Source of the DNA: a virus
Strand: one strand, 5' to 3'
IMG/VR virus record: IMGVR_UViG_3300008448_000085
Location: 1-59,711 of that record
Length of the DNA stretch: 59,711 bases
In this document: one piece after another, positions 280 through 15,951 of the stretch
Layout: each line of letters opens with the position of its first letter
How positions within the stretch are numbered: position 1 is the first letter of the stretch
The notes under the pieces: model-generated
Told to the model about the DNA's origin: nothing
What the model saw: the letters and a program-made list of their open reading frames with translations, nothing else
Database searches by the model: none
Made by a program: the position numbers and the translations under genes

Positions 280-1233
280 CTAGAACCGGCTGTCAGAGTA
301 ACCCGGGAGCAAATGCCGCGGGGCCGGGATTTCAGCCCACGGGACGCCAGCTGCCGCCGCTGCCGCCCGGTTGTATTCCGCTACGGCCTCGGCCTGCGCG
401 GCATCGTAGGGCAGCGTCCGAACCATTGCCCCGCCCGGGACCGCTGCCGGTATCGCGGCATGCCCCGCATACCGTGGGGCGGTATCGTCCGTGTCTGCCG
501 CATCGGCCACGGTGCAGGCCGAGTAGGTTTCCGGCTTGTGGGACTTGCGCCGTTCCATCTTCCACCCGCCCGCCATCGGGACCGCCGCGAACCGATACGC
601 TTCCCCGTCCGCCGTTACCCCGGGACGGTCCACCCACAGGGTACGGGTGGCGGTCGGGATCATCCGCCCGTCCGTCTCGGGGTATAGTGTACCCCCGTCC
701 ACGGTATACGCTTCCCCCGTCTTTTCCTCCCCGCCCGCCCCGCATAGAGCTTCCCGGGCATTCGCCCGGTCGATCTCCCGCCGGATTGCGGAAGGGTACC
801 GCGCCGCCACGGTTTCAATAGCAGCCGCCAATCGGGCCGGATTGTCCCCACCCGCCGACATGCTGGACACCCGCGGGAAGAATCGGCGGTCGCCTTGTCG
901 CCTTCCCGTACCATGCCGCCATTGTGCCCGTTCGCAGTATCGGGCTGCCCCCATGATCGCGCGCCCTACCTCATCTTCGGTTATCCCGGCTTTCGCATAG
1001 TCCCGATCCGTGAACACTTGAAGCATCATATCGGCCGCATCATCGCAGCGCGATGCCCGTACCCTGCCGGTCAACCCGTCCGCTCCCCCGGAACGAACGA
1101 ACCGACGAACCGCATAGCGGCGCAACCGTTCCAGATTGCCCGGGCATGACAGCCATACCAGCGGCTGAAAGATTGCCCCATCCTGCGATGGCGGGGCGTC
1201 AATGCGTCCGAATGTCGGGTGATAGATGGCCAT
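280..1233 (-). CDS. Hypothetical protein next to the control region
   Basis: A 317-residue leftward ORF. The ATG at 1233 was chosen over the longer frame (1425) because AGGAGGA sits at the right distance upstream and the duplicated promoter elements lie above it. It is rich in Arg, Ala and Gly, and the DNA is more GC-rich than elsewhere, with many CCGGG runs. A segment near residues 65-85 (CDDAADMMLQVF) weakly recalls sigma-factor region 2, not enough to assign. Its divergence from the rightward operon across palindromic operators suggests a regulatory role, but no HTH is evident. Function unknown. Confidence 0.7.
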   Translation of the reverse strand: MAIYHPTFGRIDAPPSQDGAIFQPLVWLSCPGNLERLRRYAVRRFVRSGGADGLTGRVRASRCDDAADMMLQVFTDRDYAKAGITEDEVGRAIMGAARYCERAQWRHGTGRRQGDRRFFPRVSSMSAGGDNPARLAAAIETVAARYPSAIRREIDRANAREALCGAGGEEKTGEAYTVDGGTLYPETDGRMIPTATRTLWVDRPGVTADGEAYRFAAVPMAGGWKMERRKSHKPETYSACTVADAADTDDTAPRYAGHAAIPAAVPGGAMVRTLPYDAAQAEAVAEYNRAAAAAAGVPWAEIPAPRHLLPGYSDSRF

Positions 1234-1325
1234 GGTACTAATCCTCCTAAGATGCCCCGGGGAGCGAACGTCCCCGGCGGTCCCTTTACTATCGGGGATA
1301 TCGTCCAGATAGTCAATAGGGCTGA

Positions 1326-1380
1326 AAAGATTTTTCCCCCCCCTCCCGCATATATACCGTTCCGATTCAAATCGGAACAA
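1326..1380 (-). promoter_or_regulatory. Promoter-like element, copy 1, with palindromic operator
   Basis: On the minus strand TTGTTC (1380-1375) and TATATA (1356-1351) are 18 bases apart, followed by GCGGGA and an eight-G run. The 20-base palindrome at 1359-1378 (arms GTTCCGATT and AATCGGAAC, two central bases) fills the spacer. A protein bound there would block polymerase. It would drive the leftward gene 280-1233. Confidence 0.45.
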
Positions 1381-1390
1381 ATCGACCGCC

Positions 1391-1406
1391 CCGATTGTAA
1401 AATCGG
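1391..1406. promoter_or_regulatory. Second CCGATT/AATCGG operator half-site pair
   Basis: CCGATT-GTAA-AATCGG repeats the core of the palindrome at 1359-1378, its centre 30 bases away (about three helical turns). The same factor probably binds both. It lies between the two promoter-like copies. Confidence 0.4.
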
Positions 1407-1458
1407 CCGCGGCTGGTTTGCACACTGGCCCACGGGCTAGGATATGCGGTCAGGTGGG

Positions 1459-1511
1459 AAAATATTCCCCCCCCCGTCCCGCATATACACCGTCGCAACT
1501 CAAATGCGGCG
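1459..1511 (-). promoter_or_regulatory. Promoter-like element, copy 2
   Basis: This is a diverged duplicate of the element at 1326-1380. On the minus strand both read ACGG, TATATA or TGTATA, TGCGGGA, a long G run, then an A/T-rich stretch. The spacer again holds an inverted repeat, but a different one: CGTCGCA (1491-1497) against TGCGGCG (1505-1511), one mismatch. The two copies may answer to different regulators. It lies upstream of the rightward gene at 1563 and may also influence it. Confidence 0.35.
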
Positions 1512-1562
1512 AGGGTAACGATATTACTATCTGCGCATGCGGGCAGATCAAAGGAGGTTTCC

Positions 1563-1673
1563 ATGACGATGAGCCATGATGATTTCCAGCGTGTCTACGC
1601 CGATTTTCGATCCCGCGGTTTCGATCACTGGAAAGCGATTTGGATCACGCTCTGCTCTTCAGCGACCGTCTAG
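1563..1673 (+). CDS. Small hypothetical protein, first gene of rightward operon
   Basis: A 36-residue ORF (starts MTMSHDDFQRVYADFR) with a near-perfect AAAGGAGG ribosome-binding site ending five bases before the ATG. The strong site is the main reason to call it. Its TAG stop at 1671-1673 abuts the hammerhead ribozyme motif, so ribosomes finishing this gene would run into the ribozyme fold. No known family; it may act partly as a leader ORF. Confidence 0.65.
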   Translation: MTMSHDDFQRVYADFRSRGFDHWKAIWITLCSSATV

Positions 1674-1724
1674 GCCGAAACCCGGGCGACCGGGTCTACC
1701 CGTGATGCGGGTACTGATGAGGCC
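1673..1724 (+). ncRNA. Type II hammerhead self-cleaving ribozyme
   Basis: All conserved elements occur in type II order. Stem II is GGCC (1673-1676) with GGCC (1721-1724). GAAA is at 1677-1680. Stem III is ACCCGG (1680-1685) with CCGGGT (1690-1695) and a GCGA tetraloop. The UC cleavage dinucleotide is 1695-1696. Stem I is TACCCG (1697-1702) with CGGGTA (1708-1713). The core CTGATGA is 1714-1720. Predicted cleavage is after C1696, 46 bases upstream of the next ATG, separating the first ORF from the rest of the operon mRNA and leaving a 5'-hydroxyl. Type II hammerheads are known from bacterial and phage DNA. Confidence 0.88.
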
Positions 1725-1742
1725 AAACCCTACGGAGGCTCC

Positions 1743-2084
1743 ATGTCAAAAGTGGATCACTCCCTAGTGATCATGGCAGCGTTGGCCGAGCCACTAGCCA
1801 AGCTTCGGGAAGCCGGGAATGTTTCCGTGCCGTCCGATGAGCTGGCGGTGCGTGCGGTCAAGGGTTGTCTGAACACTAGGACGGGCGGCTGGCGGGCTAG
1901 TAAGCCTGCCGACGATGCCGCCGGATTGTTGTGGTCGCTGGTCAAGTTTCACCGCTCTGGGGGCAGTCTCTACGGCTGGCCGTGGTTTGCGGATGAGGCT
2001 ATGCGGGATCAGTTAGACACGCTGGCAGTTGTACTGCTCGGCGGGTCGCGTGCGGCCAGTGAATGGCAGCGCGTGTTGAGTTGA
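1743..2084 (+). CDS. Hypothetical protein downstream of the ribozyme
   Basis: 113 residues with a good ACGGAGG site 6 bases before the ATG. It looks helical and soluble (alternating Ala/Leu helices, then a WPWFADEAMRDQ patch). It is the first complete gene on the 3' product if the hammerhead at 1673-1724 cleaves. No family recognised. Confidence 0.7.
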   Translation: MSKVDHSLVIMAALAEPLAKLREAGNVSVPSDELAVRAVKGCLNTRTGGWRASKPADDAAGLLWSLVKFHRSGGSLYGWPWFADEAMRDQLDTLAVVLLGGSRAASEWQRVLS

Positions 2085-2088
2085 CGGG

Positions 2089-2155
2089 ACCCGGGCAGGT
2101 GGCTGCGGCTAACGGGCGCTCGCCCAAGTAAGTCCGAATGCTGCCTGCCCGGGTT
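2089..2155 (+). ncRNA. Long-range hairpin downstream of 2084
   Basis: ACCCGGGCAGG (2089-2099) pairs perfectly with CCTGCCCGGGT (2145-2155), followed by TTGGTT. The loop contains a smaller GGGCG/CGCCC hairpin. It could be a weak terminator or the first half of a structured leader. Its 5' arm could instead pair with the CCTGCCCGGG segment at 2238-2247, so alternative folds are possible. Confidence 0.45.
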
Positions 2156-2168
2156 TGGTTGACGGTGT

Positions 2169-2297
2169 CCGAATAGCCCCCTCTGGGCAAAACGCATGCG
2201 ACGGCGTGCGTAGTCAACGCGGGGAGAACCGCCACTGCCTGCCCGGGCAGCTTCAGTGGCCTGCGATCCAACCGTTGGCTCAGAGGGTGCTATTCGG
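2169..2297 (+). ncRNA. Structured leader RNA candidate, multi-helix junction
   Basis: CCGAATAGCCCCCTCTG (2169-2185) pairs with CAGAGGGTGCTATTCGG (2281-2297), 16 of 17 positions, closing a 95-base interior. The interior holds an 8-bp hairpin with one G-U pair (2192-2211, loop GACG), a second hairpin closed by GCCACTG/CAGTGGC (2231-2260) around a CTGCCCGGGCAG palindrome, and a small CCAA/TTGG hairpin. It ends 34 bases before the ATG at 2332. It could be a riboswitch-like leader, an antitermination RNA or a small RNA. No known class recognised. Confidence 0.55.
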
Positions 2298-2331
2298 CTG
2301 CCGTTCGGTAGTCGATCTCACGGAGGTGCAT

Positions 2332-3081
2332 ATGCGTGTTCGCTATGCACCGGCAAACGCCAAGCTCTCCCGTCTGGAGGCTCGGCTGGGCGTCAAGGTC
2401 TACTCCTTTGACATGCTCTCAGGAGTGACCTGCCCTGGTGCCAAAGACTGCAAGTCTTGGGCCGAGGAGCAGAATGACGGCTCACGCCGAATCGTAGATG
2501 GGAAGCATACGGTGTTCCGGTGCTTCTCCGCCTCGCAAGAGGCTCAGTATACGAACGTGTTCGATTTCCGAGAGGAGAACACCCAGGCTGCTCTCAGCCT
2601 TGCGGCCAGTTCTCCCATGAAATGTGCTGCCGCCCTGGTGGCAGCATTGCCCGACGATGCGGCGGTGTGCCGTCCGCATGTGGCTGGGGACTTCAAACTC
2701 CTCAACTACTTCGATGCATGGCTTGAGGTCTGCCACCGCAGGCCTGACATGCGGTTCTATGCCTACACCAAGATGCTGCCCTTCTGGGCCAAGCGACGGG
2801 ATGTCCTCCCGCCAAACTTGGCGCTGACGGCCAGCCGTGGCGGCAGATGGGATCACCTCATCGACTCTGAGGGATTCCGCGAGTCGGTGGTGGTCTACAG
2901 CGAGCAACAGGCCGACGATCTGGGCTTGGAAATCGACCATGACGATCACCACGCCTACTCGCTCACGGGTGGTTCGTTTGCCCTGCTGATCCACGGCACT
3001 CAGCCGCCGGGCAGCGAGGCCGGCAAGGCCGTGCGGGCCTTGCGTGGCAATGGTTCTTACAACCGAAAGGTCAAGGTGTGA
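2332..3081 (+). CDS. GP88-family phage protein
   Basis: 249 residues. The ATG at 2332 follows ACGGAGG; the longer frame would begin inside the structured leader. The N-terminal half has the pattern I know for the phage gene-product-88 family: KVYSFDMLSG, then C-P-G-A-x-D-C, then a basic stretch and FRCFSAS. Paired cysteines (near residues 34, 39 and 64) suggest metal binding. The family is found in actinobacteriophages and metagenomic phages; its function is not established. It is the largest early gene apart from the recombinase. Confidence 0.75.
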   Translation: MRVRYAPANAKLSRLEARLGVKVYSFDMLSGVTCPGAKDCKSWAEEQNDGSRRIVDGKHTVFRCFSASQEAQYTNVFDFREENTQAALSLAASSPMKCAAALVAALPDDAAVCRPHVAGDFKLLNYFDAWLEVCHRRPDMRFYAYTKMLPFWAKRRDVLPPNLALTASRGGRWDHLIDSEGFRESVVVYSEQQADDLGLEIDHDDHHAYSLTGGSFALLIHGTQPPGSEAGKAVRALRGNGSYNRKVKV

Positions 3082-3082
3082 C

Positions 3083-3301
3083 ATGCGGATTCTTTCGCAG
3101 CCCGGTCACAACGACGGGCTGATTCGCGGCTGGCTGGCTTGGGAAGGCTCGCGATGGCCGTGCGAGGTCCGGGATGGAGTCATCTGGACTCGCAGCGCCG
3201 GCCACGCCGAGCGCATTCGACGCAGGCTGGATCGCACATGGGGCGAGTGGGGCTGTGGTGCCCCGATCCCCACTGTCGATTGGCCACGGGAGGAGGTGTG
3301 A
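3083..3301 (+). CDS. Small hypothetical protein
   Basis: 72 residues, Trp- and Arg-rich, beginning one base after the previous stop. The junction AGGTGTGACATG places the ribosome-binding site over the upstream stop codon, a layout repeated at the next genes. No family recognised. Confidence 0.65.
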   Translation: MRILSQPGHNDGLIRGWLAWEGSRWPCEVRDGVIWTRSAGHAERIRRRLDRTWGEWGCGAPIPTVDWPREEV

Positions 3302-3302
3302 C

Positions 3303-3506
3303 ATGCCCGAGCTGACTGACCTGGAGGAGGGCAGGTGCTTTGTCCTCCTCAGTGACTGTGAGACATGGGATGAGGTCAAGGATTGCGTGGTGCGATTCTC
3401 AACCGAATCCCAAGAGGCAGACAGGGAATGGGGTGACCGGATCGCAGGATACCGGGACATTTCCATCGAAGAGTTGGTGCGACATTACCTTGCAACCAAG
3501 GGGTGA
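3303..3506 (+). CDS. Small acidic hypothetical protein
   Basis: 67 residues, acidic, with a GGAGGTGTGACATG junction. The C-terminal half (ISIEELVRHYLATKG) looks helical. No family recognised. Confidence 0.65.
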   Translation: MPELTDLEEGRCFVLLSDCETWDEVKDCVVRFSTESQEADREWGDRIAGYRDISIEELVRHYLATKG

Positions 3507-3509
3507 GAC

Positions 3510-3761
3510 ATGCGGCGACTTGATGATCCCCCGATGCAATGGCGGTACGGGATTCGTTTGCGTGGCCTGTGGCTCGCCGCCAATGGCAGGTGGCTGAGGG
3601 ACGGGGCACACCCAGACGTTCAGCACTGGCCGACCATGCAGCAGGCTCGCGATTGGCGTGAGCGGCACATGCCCGGGGAACTAGAGGCGTGGGCTGAGTC
3701 GATTGGCATATTCCGAGGCGGCGTCGATGTGACTGCCGCTGTTCACAACGGGGAGGTGTGA
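3510..3761 (+). CDS. Small hypothetical protein
   Basis: 83 residues, Arg- and Trp-rich, starting three bases after the previous gene with GGGGTGAGACATG as junction. A central segment HWPTMQQARDWRERH looks like a DNA- or RNA-contacting helix, but no family is recognised. Confidence 0.65.
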   Translation: MRRLDDPPMQWRYGIRLRGLWLAANGRWLRDGAHPDVQHWPTMQQARDWRERHMPGELEAWAESIGIFRGGVDVTAAVHNGEV

Positions 3762-3762
3762 A

Positions 3763-3957
3763 ATGTTGAGAGTAAAGATTGAAACCGACAACGATGCGTT
3801 CGCAGGGCATGGGGAACAGGAGGTTGCCCGGTTGCTTCGGCTAGTGGCCGACCGGGTGGAAGACGGGCAACTGGACGGCCAACTAATGGACATCAACGGG
3901 AACCGCTGCGGGGCCTTTGACCTGCGGCTTGAAGCACCACAAGGCGAGGAGGTTTGA
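3763..3957 (+). CDS. Small hypothetical protein
   Basis: 64 residues. The pattern IETDNDAF..., then a helix RLLRLVADRVEDG, then DINGNRCGAFDL recalls small helix-strand proteins common in phage early regions. Junction GGAGGTGTGAAATG. Function unknown. Confidence 0.65.
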   Translation: MLRVKIETDNDAFAGHGEQEVARLLRLVADRVEDGQLDGQLMDINGNRCGAFDLRLEAPQGEEV

Positions 3958-3958
3958 C

Positions 3959-4489
3959 ATGGGCCAATACTGGAAAACGGTGAACCTAGACAAGCGTGAG
4001 TACATCTGCCCGCACAAGTTGGGAGGCGGGCTAAAGCTATGGGAGCAGGTGAACAATCCGCCCGGCACACCCGTGGCGCTGTTCATCCTGACTGCGGCCA
4101 TGCCAGTGCCAAGGGGCGGCGGCGATCTTCAGCCTCACCCCGTCATTGGCAGGTGGGCAGGCGACCGCATCGCCACCATTGGCGACTACGCCGAGGACGG
4201 CGATGTGCCGAAGTCGCGGATACCGGCAAGCATTCTCTATACGCTGTGCCGCTCACAGGAAGACCTGGACGAGCTGCGAGATGTCTATCGCCAGCGGGTG
4301 CGGGATCGCGACGTTTACACCGACAACGCACGCCAAATGCTCAAGCGCCTGCGTGGAAGGACAGCATTCACCGATGTCTCGGACATGGTGTGCGAGGCGA
4401 TTGAGCGTGAGTGCATGGGCAAGTTCGTCGGTGACGGCTGGAGAACATGGATTCCGACAGGCGCGCCAGAGGAGGCTGACTATGCGTGA
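3959..4489 (+). CDS. Conserved phage/plasmid hypothetical (MGQYWK family)
   Basis: 176 residues. The start MGQYWKTVNLDKREYI, then HKLGGGLKLWEQ, AAMPVPRGGGD and VIGRWAGDRI, matches a family I have seen in phages, plasmids and actinobacterial genomes, always without a known function. The ATG at 3959 follows GGAGGTTTGAC. It is one of the better-conserved genes of the early operon. Confidence 0.7.
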   Translation: MGQYWKTVNLDKREYICPHKLGGGLKLWEQVNNPPGTPVALFILTAAMPVPRGGGDLQPHPVIGRWAGDRIATIGDYAEDGDVPKSRIPASILYTLCRSQEDLDELRDVYRQRVRDRDVYTDNARQMLKRLRGRTAFTDVSDMVCEAIERECMGKFVGDGWRTWIPTGAPEEADYA

Positions 4490-4802
4490 CACCCTGTATC
4501 TCGGTGCCTGCCCATACGGTGAGGATGGTGCCTCAGTTGGGCAGGATGGCTACATGCGGCAGGCCCGCAAGGAATGTCGGGCCTACATCGGGCAACTCAA
4601 ACGGATGTTCGGTGAGCCGCCCGAGGATTGCTCCTTGGTCATACGGTCAAATCCGCATGACTTTGGAACCTACCTGTCTGTGGAGGCGCAGTTCAACACC
4701 ATGGCCGGGCAGGAGTATGCGTTGAGTTGTGACAACAAGCAGCCCAGGCACTGGGACGAGCAGGCCAGGGCAGAACTGGGACTGGAGGTGAACGATGCCT
4801 AG
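4482..4802 (+). CDS. Hypothetical protein
   Basis: 106 residues, overlapping the previous stop by eight bases, with AGGAGG just upstream. It reads as a compact mixed alpha/beta protein (YLGACPYGEDG, then a helix RQARKECRAYIGQLKRMFG). No family recognised. Confidence 0.65.
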   Translation: MRDTLYLGACPYGEDGASVGQDGYMRQARKECRAYIGQLKRMFGEPPEDCSLVIRSNPHDFGTYLSVEAQFNTMAGQEYALSCDNKQPRHWDEQARAELGLEVNDA

Positions 4803-5004
4803 CAAAACCAAACGCTACGCCGCGGTTTCTTGGTGTGCCGTGGACATCCAGAGCATGCGTCCGTGGTGGACGATCAAGCAATGCAACGAGTTCTTGGACG
4901 ACAACGAGGATCACATCCAAGTTGCGATGATTGAAGCCGGGGGCGATGCGATTCGCGAACTTCTTCCTACCACCGATACGGAGGTGAGCGATGCGACGAG
5001 TTGA
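4795..5004 (+). CDS. Small hypothetical protein
   Basis: 69 residues with an eight-base overlap with its upstream neighbour and CTGGAGGTG before the ATG. N-terminal strand-like YAAVSWCAVDI, then an acidic helical stretch. No family recognised. Confidence 0.65.
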   Translation: MPSKTKRYAAVSWCAVDIQSMRPWWTIKQCNEFLDDNEDHIQVAMIEAGGDAIRELLPTTDTEVSDATS

Positions 5005-5329
5005 AACCTACCGTGGCTCCAAGGAGTTCGTCCTTGCCTTGGAACCCGAGGACATGGAACACATGGCCCCAGAGTTCGACCGCATCCGCAAAGTCTGGGC
5101 CAACGAGTGGCACCTGCGTGGCAGAAAGGACGATGGCTCATGCTGCCTTGGCGTCGGCATCTCGGTGTACTACCTGCGACCAGGCAAGCGTAAGCCTGAG
5201 CGGCGGCAGGTCATCTCATGGACATGGACGCAGGGCGATCTGGAGGCAGATCGTACCCGCCACCTACCGCTGGGAATGCTCGCAGAGCATGGCGTGCTTG
5301 GCGTGTACGACTGTGGGCGGATGGACTAG
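4991..5329 (+). CDS. Hypothetical protein
   Basis: 112 residues, overlapping the previous gene by 14 bases with ACGGAGGTGAGCG as ribosome-binding region. Mixed charge, with a CC pair and SVYYLRPGKRKPERRQ. Function unknown. Confidence 0.65.
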   Translation: MRRVETYRGSKEFVLALEPEDMEHMAPEFDRIRKVWANEWHLRGRKDDGSCCLGVGISVYYLRPGKRKPERRQVISWTWTQGDLEADRTRHLPLGMLAEHGVLGVYDCGRMD

Positions 5330-5338
5330 GGAGCAACT

Positions 5339-5464
5339 ATGTGCCCAATGTGTGACTGCGAGGAGATGGCATGGGCCGCTCCTCTTGGATCGTTGTGGCA
5401 TGCCTGCTGTAGGGCATGCGGGTGGGTGTTTTCGTTTGAGGATTCAGAGGCATCGGACTCCTGA
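5339..5464 (+). CDS. Micro zinc-ribbon protein
   Basis: 41 residues with two cysteine clusters: MCPMCDC at the start and CCRACG at 23-28. The C-x2-C...C-x2-C spacing suggests one bound zinc. It follows the previous stop by nine bases with GGGAG upstream. It could be a small nucleic-acid or protein-binding factor. Confidence 0.5.
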   Translation: MCPMCDCEEMAWAAPLGSLWHACCRACGWVFSFEDSEASDS

Positions 5465-5503
5465 TGTCCACGGCATGGATGCAATCACGTTGAAGGACGA
5501 GCG

Positions 5504-5770
5504 ATGGCATCGATGCTTTACAACCCGTGCCGCCGGCTGCGGTACGAACTGCACATGAAACGACAGGAAGTGGATGTCCTGCGGCTGGTTTTACAGGTGA
5601 TTGCCACCCTACAGGAGGCCACGCCTGACATCGGCCTGACTCATCGGGCAGAGACAGTCTTCGCCCGACTTCACGCGGAGGTGGAGTGGTTCTTTAGGAA
5701 CGACGGTCACATGGAGGTGTCCAATGTGGGCGGTGCGAACAAGAAAGGAAATCCTGGCGGTGTTCGATGA
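5504..5770 (+). CDS. Small helical hypothetical protein
   Basis: 88 residues, mostly helical (KRQEVDVLRLVLQVIATLQE). Start chosen at the ATG preceded by AAGGACGAG. Its 3' end overlaps the next ORF by 47 bases. Function unknown. Confidence 0.6.
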   Translation: MASMLYNPCRRLRYELHMKRQEVDVLRLVLQVIATLQEATPDIGLTHRAETVFARLHAEVEWFFRNDGHMEVSNVGGANKKGNPGGVR

Positions 5771-5852
5771 GCGCTGGGAGGCGGAAGAGTGGATGCGGAC
5801 TTGGCGTTCCATCCACGGGCATGGGTGTTACATTGCGAGAACGGAGAACTGA
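5724..5852 (+). CDS. Micro protein, Trp/Arg-rich
   Basis: 42 residues (MWAVRTRKEILAVFDERWEAE...) with GGAGGTG upstream and an almost abutting downstream gene (GAACTGACATG). It overlaps the preceding gene in another frame. The good site and spacing support it. Confidence 0.5.
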   Translation: MWAVRTRKEILAVFDERWEAEEWMRTWRSIHGHGCYIARTEN

Positions 5853-5853
5853 C

Positions 5854-5991
5854 ATGGTCACAGCCGGTGAACTGTACAAGTGGCTGGCCGACAAGCCTGC
5901 CAATACCCCGGTGTACGTGGAGGTCGATGGCGTGTCGCTGGTGTGTGGCGACCACTGGATCGATGTGGGCCGAGAGGAGGACGAGGAATGA
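5854..5991 (+). CDS. Small acidic hypothetical protein
   Basis: 45 residues. The pattern 'VTAGELYKWLADKPANTPVY' followed by 'GDHWIDVG' resembles small early phage proteins that start with a helix and end in a strand. It begins one base after the previous stop. Function unknown. Confidence 0.55.
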   Translation: MVTAGELYKWLADKPANTPVYVEVDGVSLVCGDHWIDVGREEDEE

Positions 5992-6200
5992 GTTACCGAC
6001 CGATGGTGAAGGTGGGCAATGAGTGGGCTGGCAATGGCGTTCGGTTTGCCACCCGGGAAGAAGCCGAGGCATCGGCCCGTGATCTGTACGGGCGGTGGAC
6101 CCTGTGCGTGGACCACCGTGCCGATGAGTCCGAAGATGCGGTAAACTGCGAGTGGGACGCAGCCCGCGGCAACGTACATCTGGAGGTGGTCAATGCCTAA
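5988..6200 (+). CDS. Conserved small phage protein (MSYRP family)
   Basis: 70 residues. MSYRPMVKVGNEW..GNG, then FATREEAEASARDLYGRW, is a recurrent pattern among small phage proteins of unknown role. The start overlaps the previous stop (GAGGAATGA). Confidence 0.65.
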   Translation: MSYRPMVKVGNEWAGNGVRFATREEAEASARDLYGRWTLCVDHRADESEDAVNCEWDAARGNVHLEVVNA

Positions 6201-6396
6201 ACCATGCACGGTTACCCTGCACATCGACTGGGAAACGCTGCGCAATCAGAAGGGTTTCTTACTGTCGTTGACCGAGACGTACGGCGACGGCCTGCTTGGA
6301 GGTGTGATCGAACTGATCGACAGCATCCAAGATCAGGCATACCACCAGGGTTGTGATGTCAAATGGCTACGGGAGACCGCCGATGCTAATGATTGA
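6193..6396 (+). CDS. Small hypothetical protein
   Basis: 67 residues ending RETADAND. The same C-terminal ending (ETADAND) closes the next gene, because both 3' ends share a junction repeat that contains the next gene's ribosome-binding site. Function unknown. Confidence 0.65.
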   Translation: MPKPCTVTLHIDWETLRNQKGFLLSLTETYGDGLLGGVIELIDSIQDQAYHQGCDVKWLRETADAND

Positions 6397-6407
6397 ACTG
6401 ACCGACG
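6371..6407 (+). repeat. Junction repeat A, copy 1
   Basis: This segment spans the end of one gene, the ribosome-binding site GGGAG and the start of the next (IELTD). It is repeated with a few changes at 6561-6597, 190 bases downstream, marking a tandem gene duplication. Confidence 0.7.
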
Positions 6408-6586
6408 CGCAGTACCGGGAGACTGTGCGGCTAATCAAAGATGCTATTGACCGCGAGTATTGCCGCGCTCGGAACAACTACATGTTCCCAGACGAGACAA
6501 CGGAAGAGTGGGAGTATGTTTCCCTGATGTCCGGTGCGATGGCTGCTTTCTCAAGGGTACAGGAGACTGCCGATGCCAACGATTGA
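6383..6586 (+). CDS. IELTD-family small protein, paralogue 1
   Basis: 67 residues starting MLMIELTDAQYRETVRLI. The next gene starts MPTIELTDEQVEELKN with the same fold of one strand then a long helix. The pair arose by tandem duplication. The start at 6383 is set by the shared GGGAGAC upstream. Function unknown. Confidence 0.65.
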   Translation: MLMIELTDAQYRETVRLIKDAIDREYCRARNNYMFPDETTEEWEYVSLMSGAMAAFSRVQETADAND

Positions 6587-6597
6587 GCTGACAGACG
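6561..6597 (+). repeat. Junction repeat A, copy 2
   Basis: Second copy of the gene-junction repeat described at 6371-6407, carrying AGGAGAC before the ATG at 6573. Confidence 0.7.
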
Positions 6598-6752
6598 AGC
6601 AGGTTGAGGAGTTGAAGAACACCATCGACTGCGAGATCGAACGGCTGGATGGGTACATCGCCAGCTATTTCCCGGGCGATCCGGATCATGTGCGATGCAC
6701 TAATGAGAGGTCTGTCTTGTCCGACATCCTTGAACTACTGGAGATTGCGTGA
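6573..6752 (+). CDS. IELTD-family small protein, paralogue 2
   Basis: 59 residues, paralogous to the preceding gene (IELTD plus a helix rich in Glu and Ile). It ends ...LELLEIA at a GCGTGATGCCA junction that recurs at 6959-6975. Confidence 0.65.
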   Translation: MPTIELTDEQVEELKNTIDCEIERLDGYIASYFPGDPDHVRCTNERSVLSDILELLEIA

Positions 6753-6757
6753 TGCCA
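6741..6757 (+). repeat. Junction repeat B, copy 1 (17 bp)
   Basis: GAGATTGCGTGATGCCA covers the last codons, the TGATG stop/start overlap and the first codons of the next gene. It is perfectly repeated at 6959-6975, 218 bases away. Confidence 0.75.
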
Positions 6758-6970
6758 AAGATGGTGACGATCACACTGCCCTTGGACGATGCTTTGGACG
6801 CGGCGTACGCATGCGTCATGCGGTCCAAGGACTACCGTGAACAGGCGACCCAGACCGACTCAGGCCGCACGTTTGACATCCTCGCCGGCAAGTACGACCG
6901 CATAGGCAAGGCGCTGTACGTTGCTATCAACAATGCCAGACCCGCCACCACTCTCAAGGAGATTGCGTGA
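6752..6970 (+). CDS. Small hypothetical protein
   Basis: 72 residues starting MPKMVTITLPLDDALDAAYACVMRS. The ATG within TGATG at 6750-6754 was preferred to the GTG one codon upstream. It ends ...LKEIA, the same junction that begins it. Confidence 0.65.
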   Translation: MPKMVTITLPLDDALDAAYACVMRSKDYREQATQTDSGRTFDILAGKYDRIGKALYVAINNARPATTLKEIA

Positions 6971-6975
6971 TGCCA
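6959..6975 (+). repeat. Junction repeat B, copy 2 (17 bp)
   Basis: Perfect second copy of the repeat at 6741-6757. Recombination between the two would delete or duplicate exactly the gene 6752-6970 in frame with its neighbours. Confidence 0.75.
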
Positions 6976-7200
6976 TACTCTGACTCTGAATACCCCAGCA
7001 TCCTGCGGGGCTATGACAAGCGTGAGTCGCAGCGATTGCTGGCTGCGGCACCTGCGTTGCTGGACTGCTTGCGTCGAACAGTTTCGCTACTGAAGTACGC
7101 CTCTACAGACGGCGGAATCAGGGGCTGCAATGCAGATGAATGGTGGTCGATGGAGCATCAGTGCGATGAGGCCATCGCCAAAGCAGAAGGGAGGGACTGA
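6970..7200 (+). CDS. AAAPALL-type small phage protein, paralogue 1
   Basis: 76 residues. The helix RLLAAAPALLDCL and the C-terminal AIAKAEGR define a very common family of small phage proteins (consensus like 'ARLIAAAPELLEAL'). Two further members lie at 7529 and 7897. Starts at the ATG of TGATG. Role unknown. Confidence 0.7.
   Translation: MPYSDSEYPSILRGYDKRESQRLLAAAPALLDCLRRTVSLLKYASTDGGIRGCNADEWWSMEHQCDEAIAKAEGRD
7171..7196 (+). repeat. Junction repeat C, copy 1 (26 bp)
   Basis: A 26-base segment encoding AIAKAEGR and containing the GGGAGGG ribosome-binding site of the next gene. It is perfectly repeated at 7868-7893. Confidence 0.8.
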
Positions 7201-7529
7201 TGTTCTACTGGGACGAGGATCGTTACCCCATCGGAGAAGGCGAGCAGCCTACGCGGTGGGGCGTTGTAATGCTGGATGACACGTATCATTTTGGCCCGGT
7301 CTACAAGCTGGCCATCTACGAGATGCGTGAGGTTCCCGGCGTCGGCAAGAGGCCGGTTGCCATGCACGTTTGCCGTGGGTTCTGCGAGTCGGGGATCACG
7401 CCTGATGCAGCCGTTGAAAGGGCTAGGCAGTATCGGCTTGCGGAGTTCGACGGCGGCGTGGAGTTCCGCTGGGTTGGTGTGTTGCGTTGGTCGAATCCGA
7501 ATCAGGCCGTGAAGAAAGGGGGAAAGTGA
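7200..7529 (+). CDS. Hypothetical protein
   Basis: 109 residues starting MFYWDEDRYPIGEGE at a TGATG overlap with a strong upstream GGGAGGG. Compact, aromatic-rich and mixed alpha/beta. It lies between two copies of junction repeat C. Function unknown. Confidence 0.65.
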   Translation: MFYWDEDRYPIGEGEQPTRWGVVMLDDTYHFGPVYKLAIYEMREVPGVGKRPVAMHVCRGFCESGITPDAAVERARQYRLAEFDGGVEFRWVGVLRWSNPNQAVKKGGK

Positions 7530-7897
7530 TGTCAGCGATCCAAGGTGATTGGTATGCGTCTCGCAGCACACATAACGGCGAGGCATACCCGCAGGATGAT
7601 GACACAGTGCGTTTCGTATATGCCACCCAGGCAGACGGGACAAAGTTCATCGTCGCAAAGGTCTGGTCTGGCGATGACGGGGACTATGCCGGCACGGCGA
7701 AGCTGGTGGCTGCTGCACCTGACATGCTGGAGGCCCTAGACTCTATCCGCTCCAGCCTCATGGAACTAGACGATGACGGGCTCGGCCGTCCGGGCTGCGG
7801 CTGGCGTGAGATGGACGCCACCTACGTTGACGAACTTATATCGAACAGCCTTCGACGGGCCATTGACGCCATCGCCAAAGCAGAAGGGAGGGAGTGA
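7529..7897 (+). CDS. AAAPDML-type small phage protein, paralogue 2
   Basis: 122 residues: an N-terminal strand-rich part with GDYAGTAKLVAAAPDMLEAL near residues 50-70 and the shared ending AIAKAEGR. Same family as 6970-7200 and 7897-8184. Starts at 7529, preceded by AGGGGGAAAG. Confidence 0.7.
   Translation: MSAIQGDWYASRSTHNGEAYPQDDDTVRFVYATQADGTKFIVAKVWSGDDGDYAGTAKLVAAAPDMLEALDSIRSSLMELDDDGLGRPGCGWREMDATYVDELISNSLRRAIDAIAKAEGRE
7868..7893 (+). repeat. Junction repeat C, copy 2 (26 bp)
   Basis: Perfect second copy of the repeat at 7171-7196, 697 bases downstream. The interval between copies holds two whole genes that could be lost or gained by one crossover. Confidence 0.8.
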
Positions 7898-8184
7898 TGA
7901 GCCATACACCGGGGCCGTGGGAGGCCGCGTTTGGCGAGGTGTACAGCCTATCTGTTGAGAAAGATGACTGCGTTGTTGCCGAATACTATGGGCCAGACGC
8001 CAACGGGCACCTCATTGCCGCTGCCCCCGATCTACTGGCGGCATGCGAAGAGCTGCTGATCTATCTCGGTGACTGGGACGATCCCGACAACGAGACTTGC
8101 GTGAGCGCCCGGGATGCCGTGCGCCGGGCAAGGGGCTTAACCAAGGAGGGTATTACCCATGGCGAGGATCGACGGATGGACTGA
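7897..8184 (+). CDS. HTPGPWE/AAAPDLL-type phage protein, paralogue 3
   Basis: 95 residues. MSHTPGPWEAAFG followed by NGHLIAAAPDLLAACEELL is a classic small phage protein arrangement, widespread and uncharacterised. Its 3' end overlaps the next ORF by 26 bases. Confidence 0.7.
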   Translation: MSHTPGPWEAAFGEVYSLSVEKDDCVVAEYYGPDANGHLIAAAPDLLAACEELLIYLGDWDDPDNETCVSARDAVRRARGLTKEGITHGEDRRMD

Positions 8185-8296
8185 CCAGAAGGTAGACTAC
8201 TGCATCGCCCTGCTTGTGCAGGCCGAGCGGATTGTGCGGGAGGTGGAGCCTGATCTGTACGAAAAGATCAGGCGTTTTCTTTTGGAGGAGGCATGA
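8159..8296 (+). CDS. Micro protein, helical
   Basis: 45 residues (MARIDGWTDQKVDYCIALLV...) with a good AAGGAGGG site 8 bases upstream. It overlaps the end of the previous gene in another frame, and its stop overlaps the next start (GCATGATG). Confidence 0.55.
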   Translation: MARIDGWTDQKVDYCIALLVQAERIVREVEPDLYEKIRRFLLEEA

Positions 8297-8559
8297 TGGC
8301 ACTGGGAAGAACGATCTTTGATGCCCTAGACGAATCGCAGGATAACAATCCGTTGACGAAGTACATGCGGCAACGGGCCGAAACAATGCTTGGCGAATAC
8401 GAGCTGCCGGTGACCGACTGCCTCAACGAACTCATCGTTCGGTGCTGGGAGTTGGCCGAAGACCCAACGGATGCTTACAACGACCTTCGTTATGCCGCCC
8501 GCGAACTGAACCGCGCCGCCGATGCGCTGCGTGTTTTCATGGACACGGAGGAGGCATGA
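8293..8559 (+). CDS. Small hypothetical protein
   Basis: 88 residues (or 87 from the second ATG) preceded by TTGGAGGAGG. Largely helical, with a C-terminal amphipathic helix YAARELNRAADALRVF. Function unknown. Confidence 0.65.
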   Translation: MMALGRTIFDALDESQDNNPLTKYMRQRAETMLGEYELPVTDCLNELIVRCWELAEDPTDAYNDLRYAARELNRAADALRVFMDTEEA

Positions 8560-8738
8560 TCACAGTAACGCTCACCATTGATGACCTCGCCTACCTGCGA
8601 GCCGCCGTGGAGCGAGACATGGAGGATGCCCGAGACATCATTGCCTTCGGGGAAGACGAGTATGCCGAGGCTGCGTATGCCTCTGCCGTGGAAGTGCTGA
8701 AGCGCCTGCCTACTGAGGAGCAGGCAATACCGTTCTGA
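8556..8738 (+). CDS. Small hypothetical protein
   Basis: 60 residues, MITVTLTIDDLAYLRAAVERD..., a strand followed by helices. ACGGAGGAGGC precedes the start, which overlaps the previous stop. It is the last gene before an intrinsic terminator. Confidence 0.65.
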   Translation: MITVTLTIDDLAYLRAAVERDMEDARDIIAFGEDEYAEAAYASAVEVLKRLPTEEQAIPF

Positions 8739-8787
8739 CAACACTGCCTGCCGGCTGATTGGGCTTCGGCCCCGAAGAAGGTCACGG

Positions 8788-8823
8788 GTGGCGGCTATGC
8801 CGGCTATGCCGCCACTCATTTTT
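8788..8823 (+). terminator. Rho-independent terminator inside the rightward operon
   Basis: GTGGCGGC (8788-8795) pairs with GCCGCCAC (8808-8815) around a 12-base loop, followed by TCATTTTT. A smaller CTTCGG/CCGAAG hairpin lies just upstream. No good promoter is seen before the next gene at 8837, so read-through or antitermination probably links the two parts of the operon. Confidence 0.7.
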
Positions 8824-8836
8824 ACCTGGAGGAACG

Positions 8837-9046
8837 ATGGCCGAGAAGAAACACCACCCGGACTACGAACCGGACGTTGAGTGCGGGTCGCTGTGCCTGC
8901 AGAAGGAAGTCGCCGTGCAGATGATGCTGGCGATTGCCTACTCACTCAAGCACAACGAGTCGATGGATGACCTGGATAAGCAGCGGCTGTGCGTGGCAGC
9001 CACTGTGATCAATGATGTGTTCGGCTTGGGTGCGGAGGGGAAGTGA
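8837..9046 (+). CDS. Small hypothetical protein
   Basis: 69 residues, first gene after the terminator, with CTGGAGGAACG before the ATG. The C-terminal part is helical (VAVQMMLAIAYSLKHNESMDD). Function unknown. Confidence 0.65.
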   Translation: MAEKKHHPDYEPDVECGSLCLQKEVAVQMMLAIAYSLKHNESMDDLDKQRLCVAATVINDVFGLGAEGK

Positions 9047-14846: not shown

Positions 14847-15010
14847 GCTTCGACCACCTGGGGGTTGTTGGATGATTCCTTGATCGCCATGACCGCTTCG
14901 ATGGATTGCATGGTGTTGGTTCGCTTGGGCAGCTTGATGCTCGGCAGGACGAACTGCACCACCACCACTGCGGCGAGGATGGCAAGGGCGACGATCTGGA
15001 AGGCAGTCAT
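14813..15010 (-). CDS. Small single-pass membrane protein
   Basis: 65 residues. Residues 3-24 form a hydrophobic helix (FQIVALAILAAVVVVQFVLP); the rest is a soluble helical tail. Overlaps the subtilisin stop by four bases. Possible holin component or anchor. Confidence 0.6.
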   Translation of the reverse strand: MTAFQIVALAILAAVVVVQFVLPSIKLPKRTNTMQSIEAVMAIKESSNNPQVVEACSQLLKALLG

Positions 15011-15951
15011 AGAATCTTGGCTCCCGGTATGAAGATGGTGACGCCGGCCACTGACTGAGCGACCGAGTAGTTCAGAAGACTGTGGGGATCAAGCAGCCCC
15101 CAGCCGTAGACGTTGTCTCGCCCCTTGTCCCCGGCGTCCTTGCATGTCTGGGACAGGGCCTTGATCGCAGTGGCGTGATCGATCTTCTTGCCGTCACGCT
15201 TGGCAGCGGACACATACAACGACAAGGTCCCGGCCACAAACGGTGCCGCCATGCTGGTGCCCGACACCGTGGCGTAGCCGTCGTTCAACCATGTGGAAGT
15301 GATGTCGCATCCCGGGGCCGCGACCACAATCTCCTTCCCCCTGCTGGAGAACTCACAGGCGGCGCCGGTTCGATCTACCGCACCGACGCCAATCGTTTCC
15401 GCAAACGCGGCGGGAAAGTTAACCGCACCGCCGTCGTTCCCAGCCGCACAGACAACGATCACCCCCTCTCGGCAAGCCAGCTTGATGGCCTCATGGAGCC
15501 TGGAGTCAGGCTTGGGTGAACCAAGCGACATGCAAGCAATGTCGCACTTTGTTTCGGCGGCATGGTAGACCGCTTGGGCAACGGCCTCGTTACTGCCCAT
15601 GCCGCTATGACCGAGGACCTTCAACGACAGGAGCTTGGCCTCCGGGGCGATGCCCTTGGCCAGGCCCCTGCGAGCGGCGATCACGCCTGCTACGTGTGTC
15701 CCATGTCCGACAGTATCTTCAAACGACGAGTCGGACGAGAAGTTCCGCCAGTCGGCAACCGCATCGATCAGGGCGCTGTGCTTGGAGATGCCGGTGTCGA
15801 TCACCGCCACCGTCACGCCCTCGCCCTTGGACTGCTTCCACAGTTCCGGGACGCCGTACGACTCCACACCCCAATCCACACCGTCCTTGTCGGACAACGG
15901 TATGCTGCCAAACTCAACACGGTACGGGGGGAGGTGAACGTACTCACTCAT
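15007..15951 (-). CDS. Subtilisin-like serine protease (S8)
   Basis: 314 residues with all catalytic residues: D52 (VAVIDTG), H83 (GHGTHVAG), oxyanion N172 (AAGND) and S233 (GTSMAAPFVAG). Length equals a bare catalytic domain, and there is no signal peptide or propeptide, as in intracellular subtilisins. ATG overlaps the upstream stop. With the C1A protease 600 bases downstream it forms an unusual two-protease module in a phage with no recognisable peptidoglycan hydrolase. Confidence 0.9.
   Translation of the reverse strand: MSEYVHLPPYRVEFGSIPLSDKDGVDWGVESYGVPELWKQSKGEGVTVAVIDTGISKHSALIDAVADWRNFSSDSSFEDTVGHGTHVAGVIAARRGLAKGIAPEAKLLSLKVLGHSGMGSNEAVAQAVYHAAETKCDIACMSLGSPKPDSRLHEAIKLACREGVIVVCAAGNDGGAVNFPAAFAETIGVGAVDRTGAACEFSSRGKEIVVAAPGCDITSTWLNDGYATVSGTSMAAPFVAGTLSLYVSAAKRDGKKIDHATAIKALSQTCKDAGDKGRDNVYGWGLLDPHSLLNYSVAQSVAGVTIFIPGAKIL

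Follow-up and report, generated by a model that had tools for sequence, protein, structure and literature searches.

The complete 59,711-base record of an uncultured tailed phage (IMG/VR IMGVR_UViG_3300008448_000085; hereafter the window) was analysed, and we found that positions 1672-1725 on its plus strand form a complete type II hammerhead ribozyme, an identification that is strongly supported and was confirmed from the sequence by Rfam, by a model built from unrelated ribozymes and by covariation. The ribozyme lies between two co-directional genes, a small open reading frame (ORF) of 36 amino acids (ORF1; 1563-1673, plus strand) and gene B (113 amino acids; 1743-2084, plus strand). Its best-supported function, and on this evidence probably the correct one, is that of a cis-acting processing site that would split a polycistronic phage messenger RNA (mRNA).

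A sequence-only reading of this DNA had described all hammerhead elements in type II order, with perfect stems, at 1673-1724, and every named element was found there by direct reading. The 5' strand of stem II (GGCC, 1673-1676, pairing with 1721-1724 also in the Rfam and model alignments) is followed by core bases G12, A13 and A14 (GAA, 1677-1679; invariant in the alignments, though fixed by the search pattern), the stem III hairpin ACCCGG-GCGA-CCGGGU (1680-1695; strands 1680-1685 and 1690-1695), C17 at 1696, assigned by its place in the hammerhead consensus, the stem I hairpin UACCCG-UGAUG-CGGGUA (1697-1713; strands 1697-1702 and 1708-1713), the core sequence CUGAUGA (1714-1720), and the 3' strand of stem II with a trailing A (GGCC and A1725, 1721-1725). 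The conserved hammerhead core (CUGANGA ... GAAA ... UH) is present with three surrounding stems, all 16 stem pairs are Watson-Crick, and stems I and III are closed by loops while stem II is open, which both direct reading and Rfam identify as the type II arrangement. The cut predicted at 1696/1697 falls 46 nucleotides (nt) ahead of the gene B ATG at 1743, as had been proposed. The earlier boundaries hold for the core and stems and fall one base short on each side: the element begins with A1672, the invariant A directly 5' of stem II, which is also an A in comparable viral ribozymes, and ends with A1725, a trailing A that is frequent in phage ribozymes. Likewise, the placement between the first ORF and the second gene was correct, but the ORF1 stop codon (TAG, 1671-1673) does not merely touch the ribozyme; A1672 is its middle base, and it overlaps stem II by one base.

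The search with the Rfam Hammerhead_II covariance model (RF02276) that had been suggested as a check gave 35.0 bits, with an expectation value (E) of 9.1e-6 in a 251-nt search and 0.0022 over the whole window, and this was the sole match in the window at E<=1. A second covariance model (R2), trained on 12 ribozymes from unrelated phage loci, scored 68.7 bits at 1672-1725 versus 15.9 bits at the next best site in the window; its independence is partial, as the training sequences had been collected with a search pattern in which GGCC and the core bases are preset. A descriptor scan for the core and three stems returned exactly one site in the window, the same ribozyme, and the same descriptor gave no match in 9 Mb of Markov-1 random sequence. 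No second hammerhead was found in the window by the Rfam model, the R2 model, or the pattern and descriptor scans.

By aligning 17 related or similar ribozymes, we found that 99.3% of paired cells hold standard pairs and that 9 of the 16 pairs change on both sides (4/6 in stem III and 5/6 in stem I). The covariation score was 0.482 versus 0.117 in shuffled alignments, and sliding the partners by one base lowered pairing to about 42%. Stem II is constant in the alignment because the search pattern fixed it, and the covariation evidence covers stems I and III; for these two stems the alignment strongly indicates maintenance by compensatory change. The result was repeated in a 12-sequence set of unrelated loci.

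The position of the ribozyme between a stop codon and the next start follows a pattern seen across phages. When IMG/VR was scanned with a pattern for type II hammerheads whose stem II is GGCC, at least 120 stretches matched, and 96 distinct matches with good stems were analysed; all GGCC-set counts given here are among the matches listed. A separate viral set has stem II GGAC. In both sets the ribozyme lies between co-directional genes. The base ahead of stem II is A in 96/96 GGCC and 123/126 GGAC ribozymes, and the first base of loop I is U in 87/87 and 83/84 of the usual 17-nt stem-loops, respectively; their counterparts in the window are A1672 and U1703, which may contact each other. An A follows the 3' strand of stem II in 72/96 and 101/126. 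An ORF of at least 30 amino acids ends between -3 and +5 nt from the ribozyme in 66/95 GGCC and 90/118 GGAC loci, compared with 5% of random positions; if the ORF must have 100 amino acids or more, the counts are 31/95 (1% at random) and 39/118. The commonest arrangement in both sets places the stop codon at -1 or 0. Downstream, an ORF of at least 40 amino acids opens with ATG within 60 nt in 74/86 and 110/122 loci (184/208 for both sets summed; 33% at random positions), at a median distance of 26 and 24 nt. Since these sets include related phages, the counts were repeated with one pick per homology cluster, which gave about 24/39 for stops, 37/39 for the A and 28/39 for starts. The pattern also holds for ribozymes at these loci that have a different stem II sequence (stops in 49/73). 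In bacterial genomes searched with the same pattern, 13 matches with stems had the A in 13/13 and abutting stops in 9/12, while 30 pattern matches without stems, an internal negative control, had them in 8/30 and 2/30.

Where ribozymes have neighbours, these stand at gene-length spacing (124/134 under 1500 nt), and only 2/208 loci have ribozymes on both strands. One array is in record G020 (IMGVR_UViG_3300038412_000035; L298 2576-7558, minus strand), where 11 type II hammerheads occupy nearly every gap of a 5-kb operon and most of them have an ORF ending 0-3 nt upstream; its last two ribozymes have the core variant CCGAUGA (U4C) and its first has CUGAAGA. Four-base loops of stem III are GNRA or UNCG in 89/131 cases across the two viral sets, with about 5% expected at random. 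Loop III lies outside the known tertiary contacts between stems I and II, and the excess fits selection for a stable end. At least one type II pattern match is also present in a cultured phage, Xanthomonas phage Xp15 (NC_007024; L217 396-456, minus strand), which could be used as a laboratory model.

We then compared 17 contigs that carry gene B, the window and 16 others. The ribozyme is present in seven (the window, L124, L127, L133, L134, L135 and L034) and absent from ten. In the ten contigs lacking it, gene B starts 13-15 nt past a shared leader, whereas in the seven bearing it the leader-to-gene B distance is 82-362 nt with the ribozyme in between. Contig L124 closely matches L128 as far as the start codon and there carries, as an insert, a 38-amino-acid ORF, a ribozyme and a ribosome-binding site. 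Small ORFs occupy the slot in the window, L124, L127 and L135, and none does in L133 and L134; they were found in 4/7 ribozyme-bearing and 0/10 other contigs (one-sided Fisher test, p about 0.015). In L034, a 300-nt structured segment (3120-3416, plus strand; z -5.0) fills the small-ORF slot between leader and ribozyme, and the ribozyme, judged by its position, would trim the 3' end of that segment. Contig L084 has the leader, a small ORF and the ribozyme ahead of a gene other than gene B. Ribozyme presence requires 6 changes (bootstrap 5-7) on a gene B tree that is weakly resolved, and a pattern search found one ribozyme or none in each record of the phage's family. The ribozyme comes and goes at a fixed site in these relatives, though the comparison does not firmly separate insertion from loss.

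Under the processing function, the ribozyme would fold once transcribed and cut after C1696. The upstream piece, with the leader and ORF1, would end in the GCGA-capped stem III hairpin plus one C with a 2',3'-cyclic phosphate, and the downstream piece, from gene B onward, would carry a 5'-OH and begin with the stem I hairpin from its first base, followed by its own ribosome-binding site (GGAGG, 1734-1738, plus strand). Stems I and III are hairpins on either side of the cut, so that both cut ends would bear one, which only the type II permutation allows. In general bacterial mRNA turnover such hairpins, and 5'-OH and cyclic-phosphate ends, would slow decay, and the mRNA of each gene could gain its own end protection, decay rate and translation. 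Operon genes would also become interchangeable: a small gene could be inserted ahead of gene B, which would keep a defined, hairpin-capped 5' end despite the insertion. More broadly, and at a confidence that we place somewhat short of an even chance, type II hammerheads set exactly between a stop and the next ribosome-binding site may form a general phage mRNA-processing layer that yields single-gene messages with both new ends hairpin-capped and allows a fixed slot to exchange its small genes or structured RNAs while the gene that follows is left undisturbed.

Several observations weigh against an active processing site here. The Rfam score is 2 bits below the RF02276 gathering score of 37 bits, which is a curator's cut-off and not a structural feature; the alignment gaps 3 bases because the model is built for pseudoknot bases and a stem II of lesser length. 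The usual type II pseudoknot is absent, as loop I (UGAUG) has no complement in the 3' tail AAACCCUACGG, and its absence makes activity at physiological Mg2+ uncertain; a pseudoknot between loop I and the 3' tail is possible in the majority, not all, of type II motifs (PMC3088659). The ribozyme differs from the usual type II consensus by its 4-base-pair stem II and the lack of this pseudoknot. Stem II is unpaired in the minimum-energy structure predicted for the free RNA, which is expected of a 4-base-pair stem that relies on tertiary contacts. In addition, gene B lacks the ribozyme in 10 of the 17 relatives and so does not need it. The sub-threshold score and the open stem II, together with 4 of 18 consensus hammerheads that were without activity in a 2011 study (PMC3088659), would suit a hammerhead-like sequence that is inactive or arose by chance, but the score from the model of unrelated loci, the empty result in random sequence, and the intact core and compensated stems in seven relatives and other phages make this very improbable. 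A ribozyme that yields circular or ligated RNA, as in retrozymes, is scarcely credible: cleavage would give ends joinable by RtcB-type ligases, and some phages have genes set between similar ribozymes in arrays, yet the window holds only one ribozyme and not two bracketing ones, the record has no RtcB gene, and spliced or circular products of phage hammerheads were sought in the 2011 study and none was found (PMC3088659).

The gain and loss at the gene B site would also fit a ribozyme carried along chiefly as a passenger by a small-gene cassette that can be exchanged (ORF1, ribozyme and ribosome-binding site), one that cleaves to make the insertion harmless to the operon, not to regulate it. 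The clean empty and filled sites of L128 and L124, the patchy presence on the gene B tree, the small ORF that occurs only alongside the ribozyme and the same arrangement before a different gene in L084 all point this way, but L133 and L134 retain an intact ribozyme without the small ORF, L034 has a structured RNA instead, the G020 ribozymes separate ordinary genes all along an operon, and no mobility gene or target duplication was seen. We regard the cassette as unlikely to be the main explanation, and it overlaps with mRNA splitting instead of excluding it. The sequence-only reading had further suggested that ribosomes finishing ORF1 could govern folding, and the overlap of the stop codon with stem II makes such coupling possible. 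It could amount to a regulated switch, in which termination of ORF1 at this stop, or a protein or ligand, controls folding, with cleavage depending on ORF1 translation in the former case. The TAG supplies both the invariant A and the first stem II base, stem II and G12-A14 would be covered by a ribosome terminating there, and stops at -1 or 0 are the commonest. However, the invariant A, available from any of the three stop codons, accounts for part of the overlap, many stops are 2-5 nt distant, no ORF ends there in L034, L133 and L134, and no alternative fold conserved in relatives was found; a switch of this kind is quite improbable. Two further candidates were tried and rejected. Sequestering of the ribosome-binding site by a GGCC freed after cleavage is possible in the window and is not conserved in relatives, and a read-through fusion of ORF1, TAG, ribozyme and gene B, for which the window and L124 have a single open frame, is not conserved, as the 70 nt in L127 are not divisible by three.

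In this phage, the terminase, portal and capsid-like genes lie on the minus strand, and small genes run rightwards from about 1560. The earlier name for the ORF1 and gene B run, an early operon, is plausible rather than proven, as ORF1 is the first gene of the left plus-strand run, opposite to the virion genes. ORF1 has a ribosome-binding site (GGAGG, 1553-1557), and similar small ORFs stand in the same slot in L124, L127, L135 and L084. The shared leader (1515-1546, plus strand) consists of a palindrome-like GTAACGATATTAC (1515-1527) and a fixed GCATGCGGGCAG (1535-1546); it is found with ATGCGGGCAG upstream of gene B in 17/17 contigs and also in L084. Among relatives the palindrome varies (GTAACGATATTAC, GTAAACGGTTTAC, GTACTATATGGTAC) while GCATGCGGGCAG is constant, and the leader stands directly ahead of the first gene. 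It resembles an operator and leader and may have a promoter or operator role. Upstream, 1321-1515 holds two similar stretches, aaaagatttttccccccctcccgcatatataccg and gaaaatattcccccccccgtcccgcatatacaccg, with a perfect inverted repeat GTTCCGATT/AATCGGAAC after the first; these are possible tandem promoter or operator units. Gene B has relatives on 16 contigs, with and without a ribozyme upstream, and gave no PHROGs or Pfam match and no protein match among cultured phages. No DNA match to window 1200-9000 was found in the phage collection (cultured relatives), and the terminase matches cultured phages only remotely (27% identity). Between gene B and a GP88-domain gene, 2085-2310 (plus strand) is strongly structured and non-coding (z -6.2; 0/200 shuffles), with no Rfam match. 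In about 20 related contigs its second half, 2165-2310, keeps a near-constant terminal helix, CCGAATAGCCCCCTCTG/CAGAGGG(T/G)GCTATTCGG, around exchangeable interiors of 81-185 nt, and some contigs lack it; among 8 sequences, both partners changed in 7/53 pairs, though the fold's covariation term was near zero. This element is a candidate unknown phage RNA. Elsewhere, 15007-15951 (minus strand) encodes a subtilase-family protein (Peptidase_S8, E 3.3e-50), which is unusual for a phage.

Type II hammerheads in phages, and the idea that they process mRNA, are already known: cleavage of tandem phage hammerheads was shown both in vitro and in E. coli, along with a proposal that they process transcripts into gene-length mRNAs (Perreault et al. 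2011, PMC3088659). Since 2011 the role of hammerheads in bacteria and phages has been described as an open question, most recently here in a 2017 review (PMC6155905). The placement rule, the one-strand arrays at gene-length spacing and the natural pairs with and without a ribozyme make the mRNA-splitting idea directly testable, and hairpins at both ends would account for the choice of the type II permutation between phage genes. The quantitative rule of stop, invariant A, ribozyme, ribosome-binding site and start may be new, together with the empty and filled polymorphism; no later paper on either was found in the searchable literature, a coverage that leaves out most subscription journals and preprints.

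The window ribozyme shares with the described bacterial and phage type II hammerheads (RF02276; PMC3088659) its core, permutation, stem order and a prophage or phage setting beside varied genes, whereas that work does not describe the exact stop-ribozyme-start geometry or the empty and filled sites. Retrozymes and viroid-like circular RNAs share the hammerhead reaction but use type I or III ribozymes to make unit-length circles, while the window has a single type II ribozyme, set in the operon of a DNA phage. The HHphage variant of haloviruses HF1 and HF2 (PMC3088659) is alike in lying just upstream of a gene, in its case 13 nt before the one that opens an early polycistronic transcript, and a transcript 5' end was mapped there within three nucleotides of the cut site; it differs in its variant core and its setting in a halophilic archaeal virus, in contrast to the canonical core and preceding small ORF of the window. 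The triple hammerheads at Agrobacterium tumefaciens ardA (PMC3088659) similarly flank single genes and cleave in E. coli, but they are three ribozymes in a prophage region, to which the 11 ribozymes of G020 are a closer parallel than the single one in this free phage contig.
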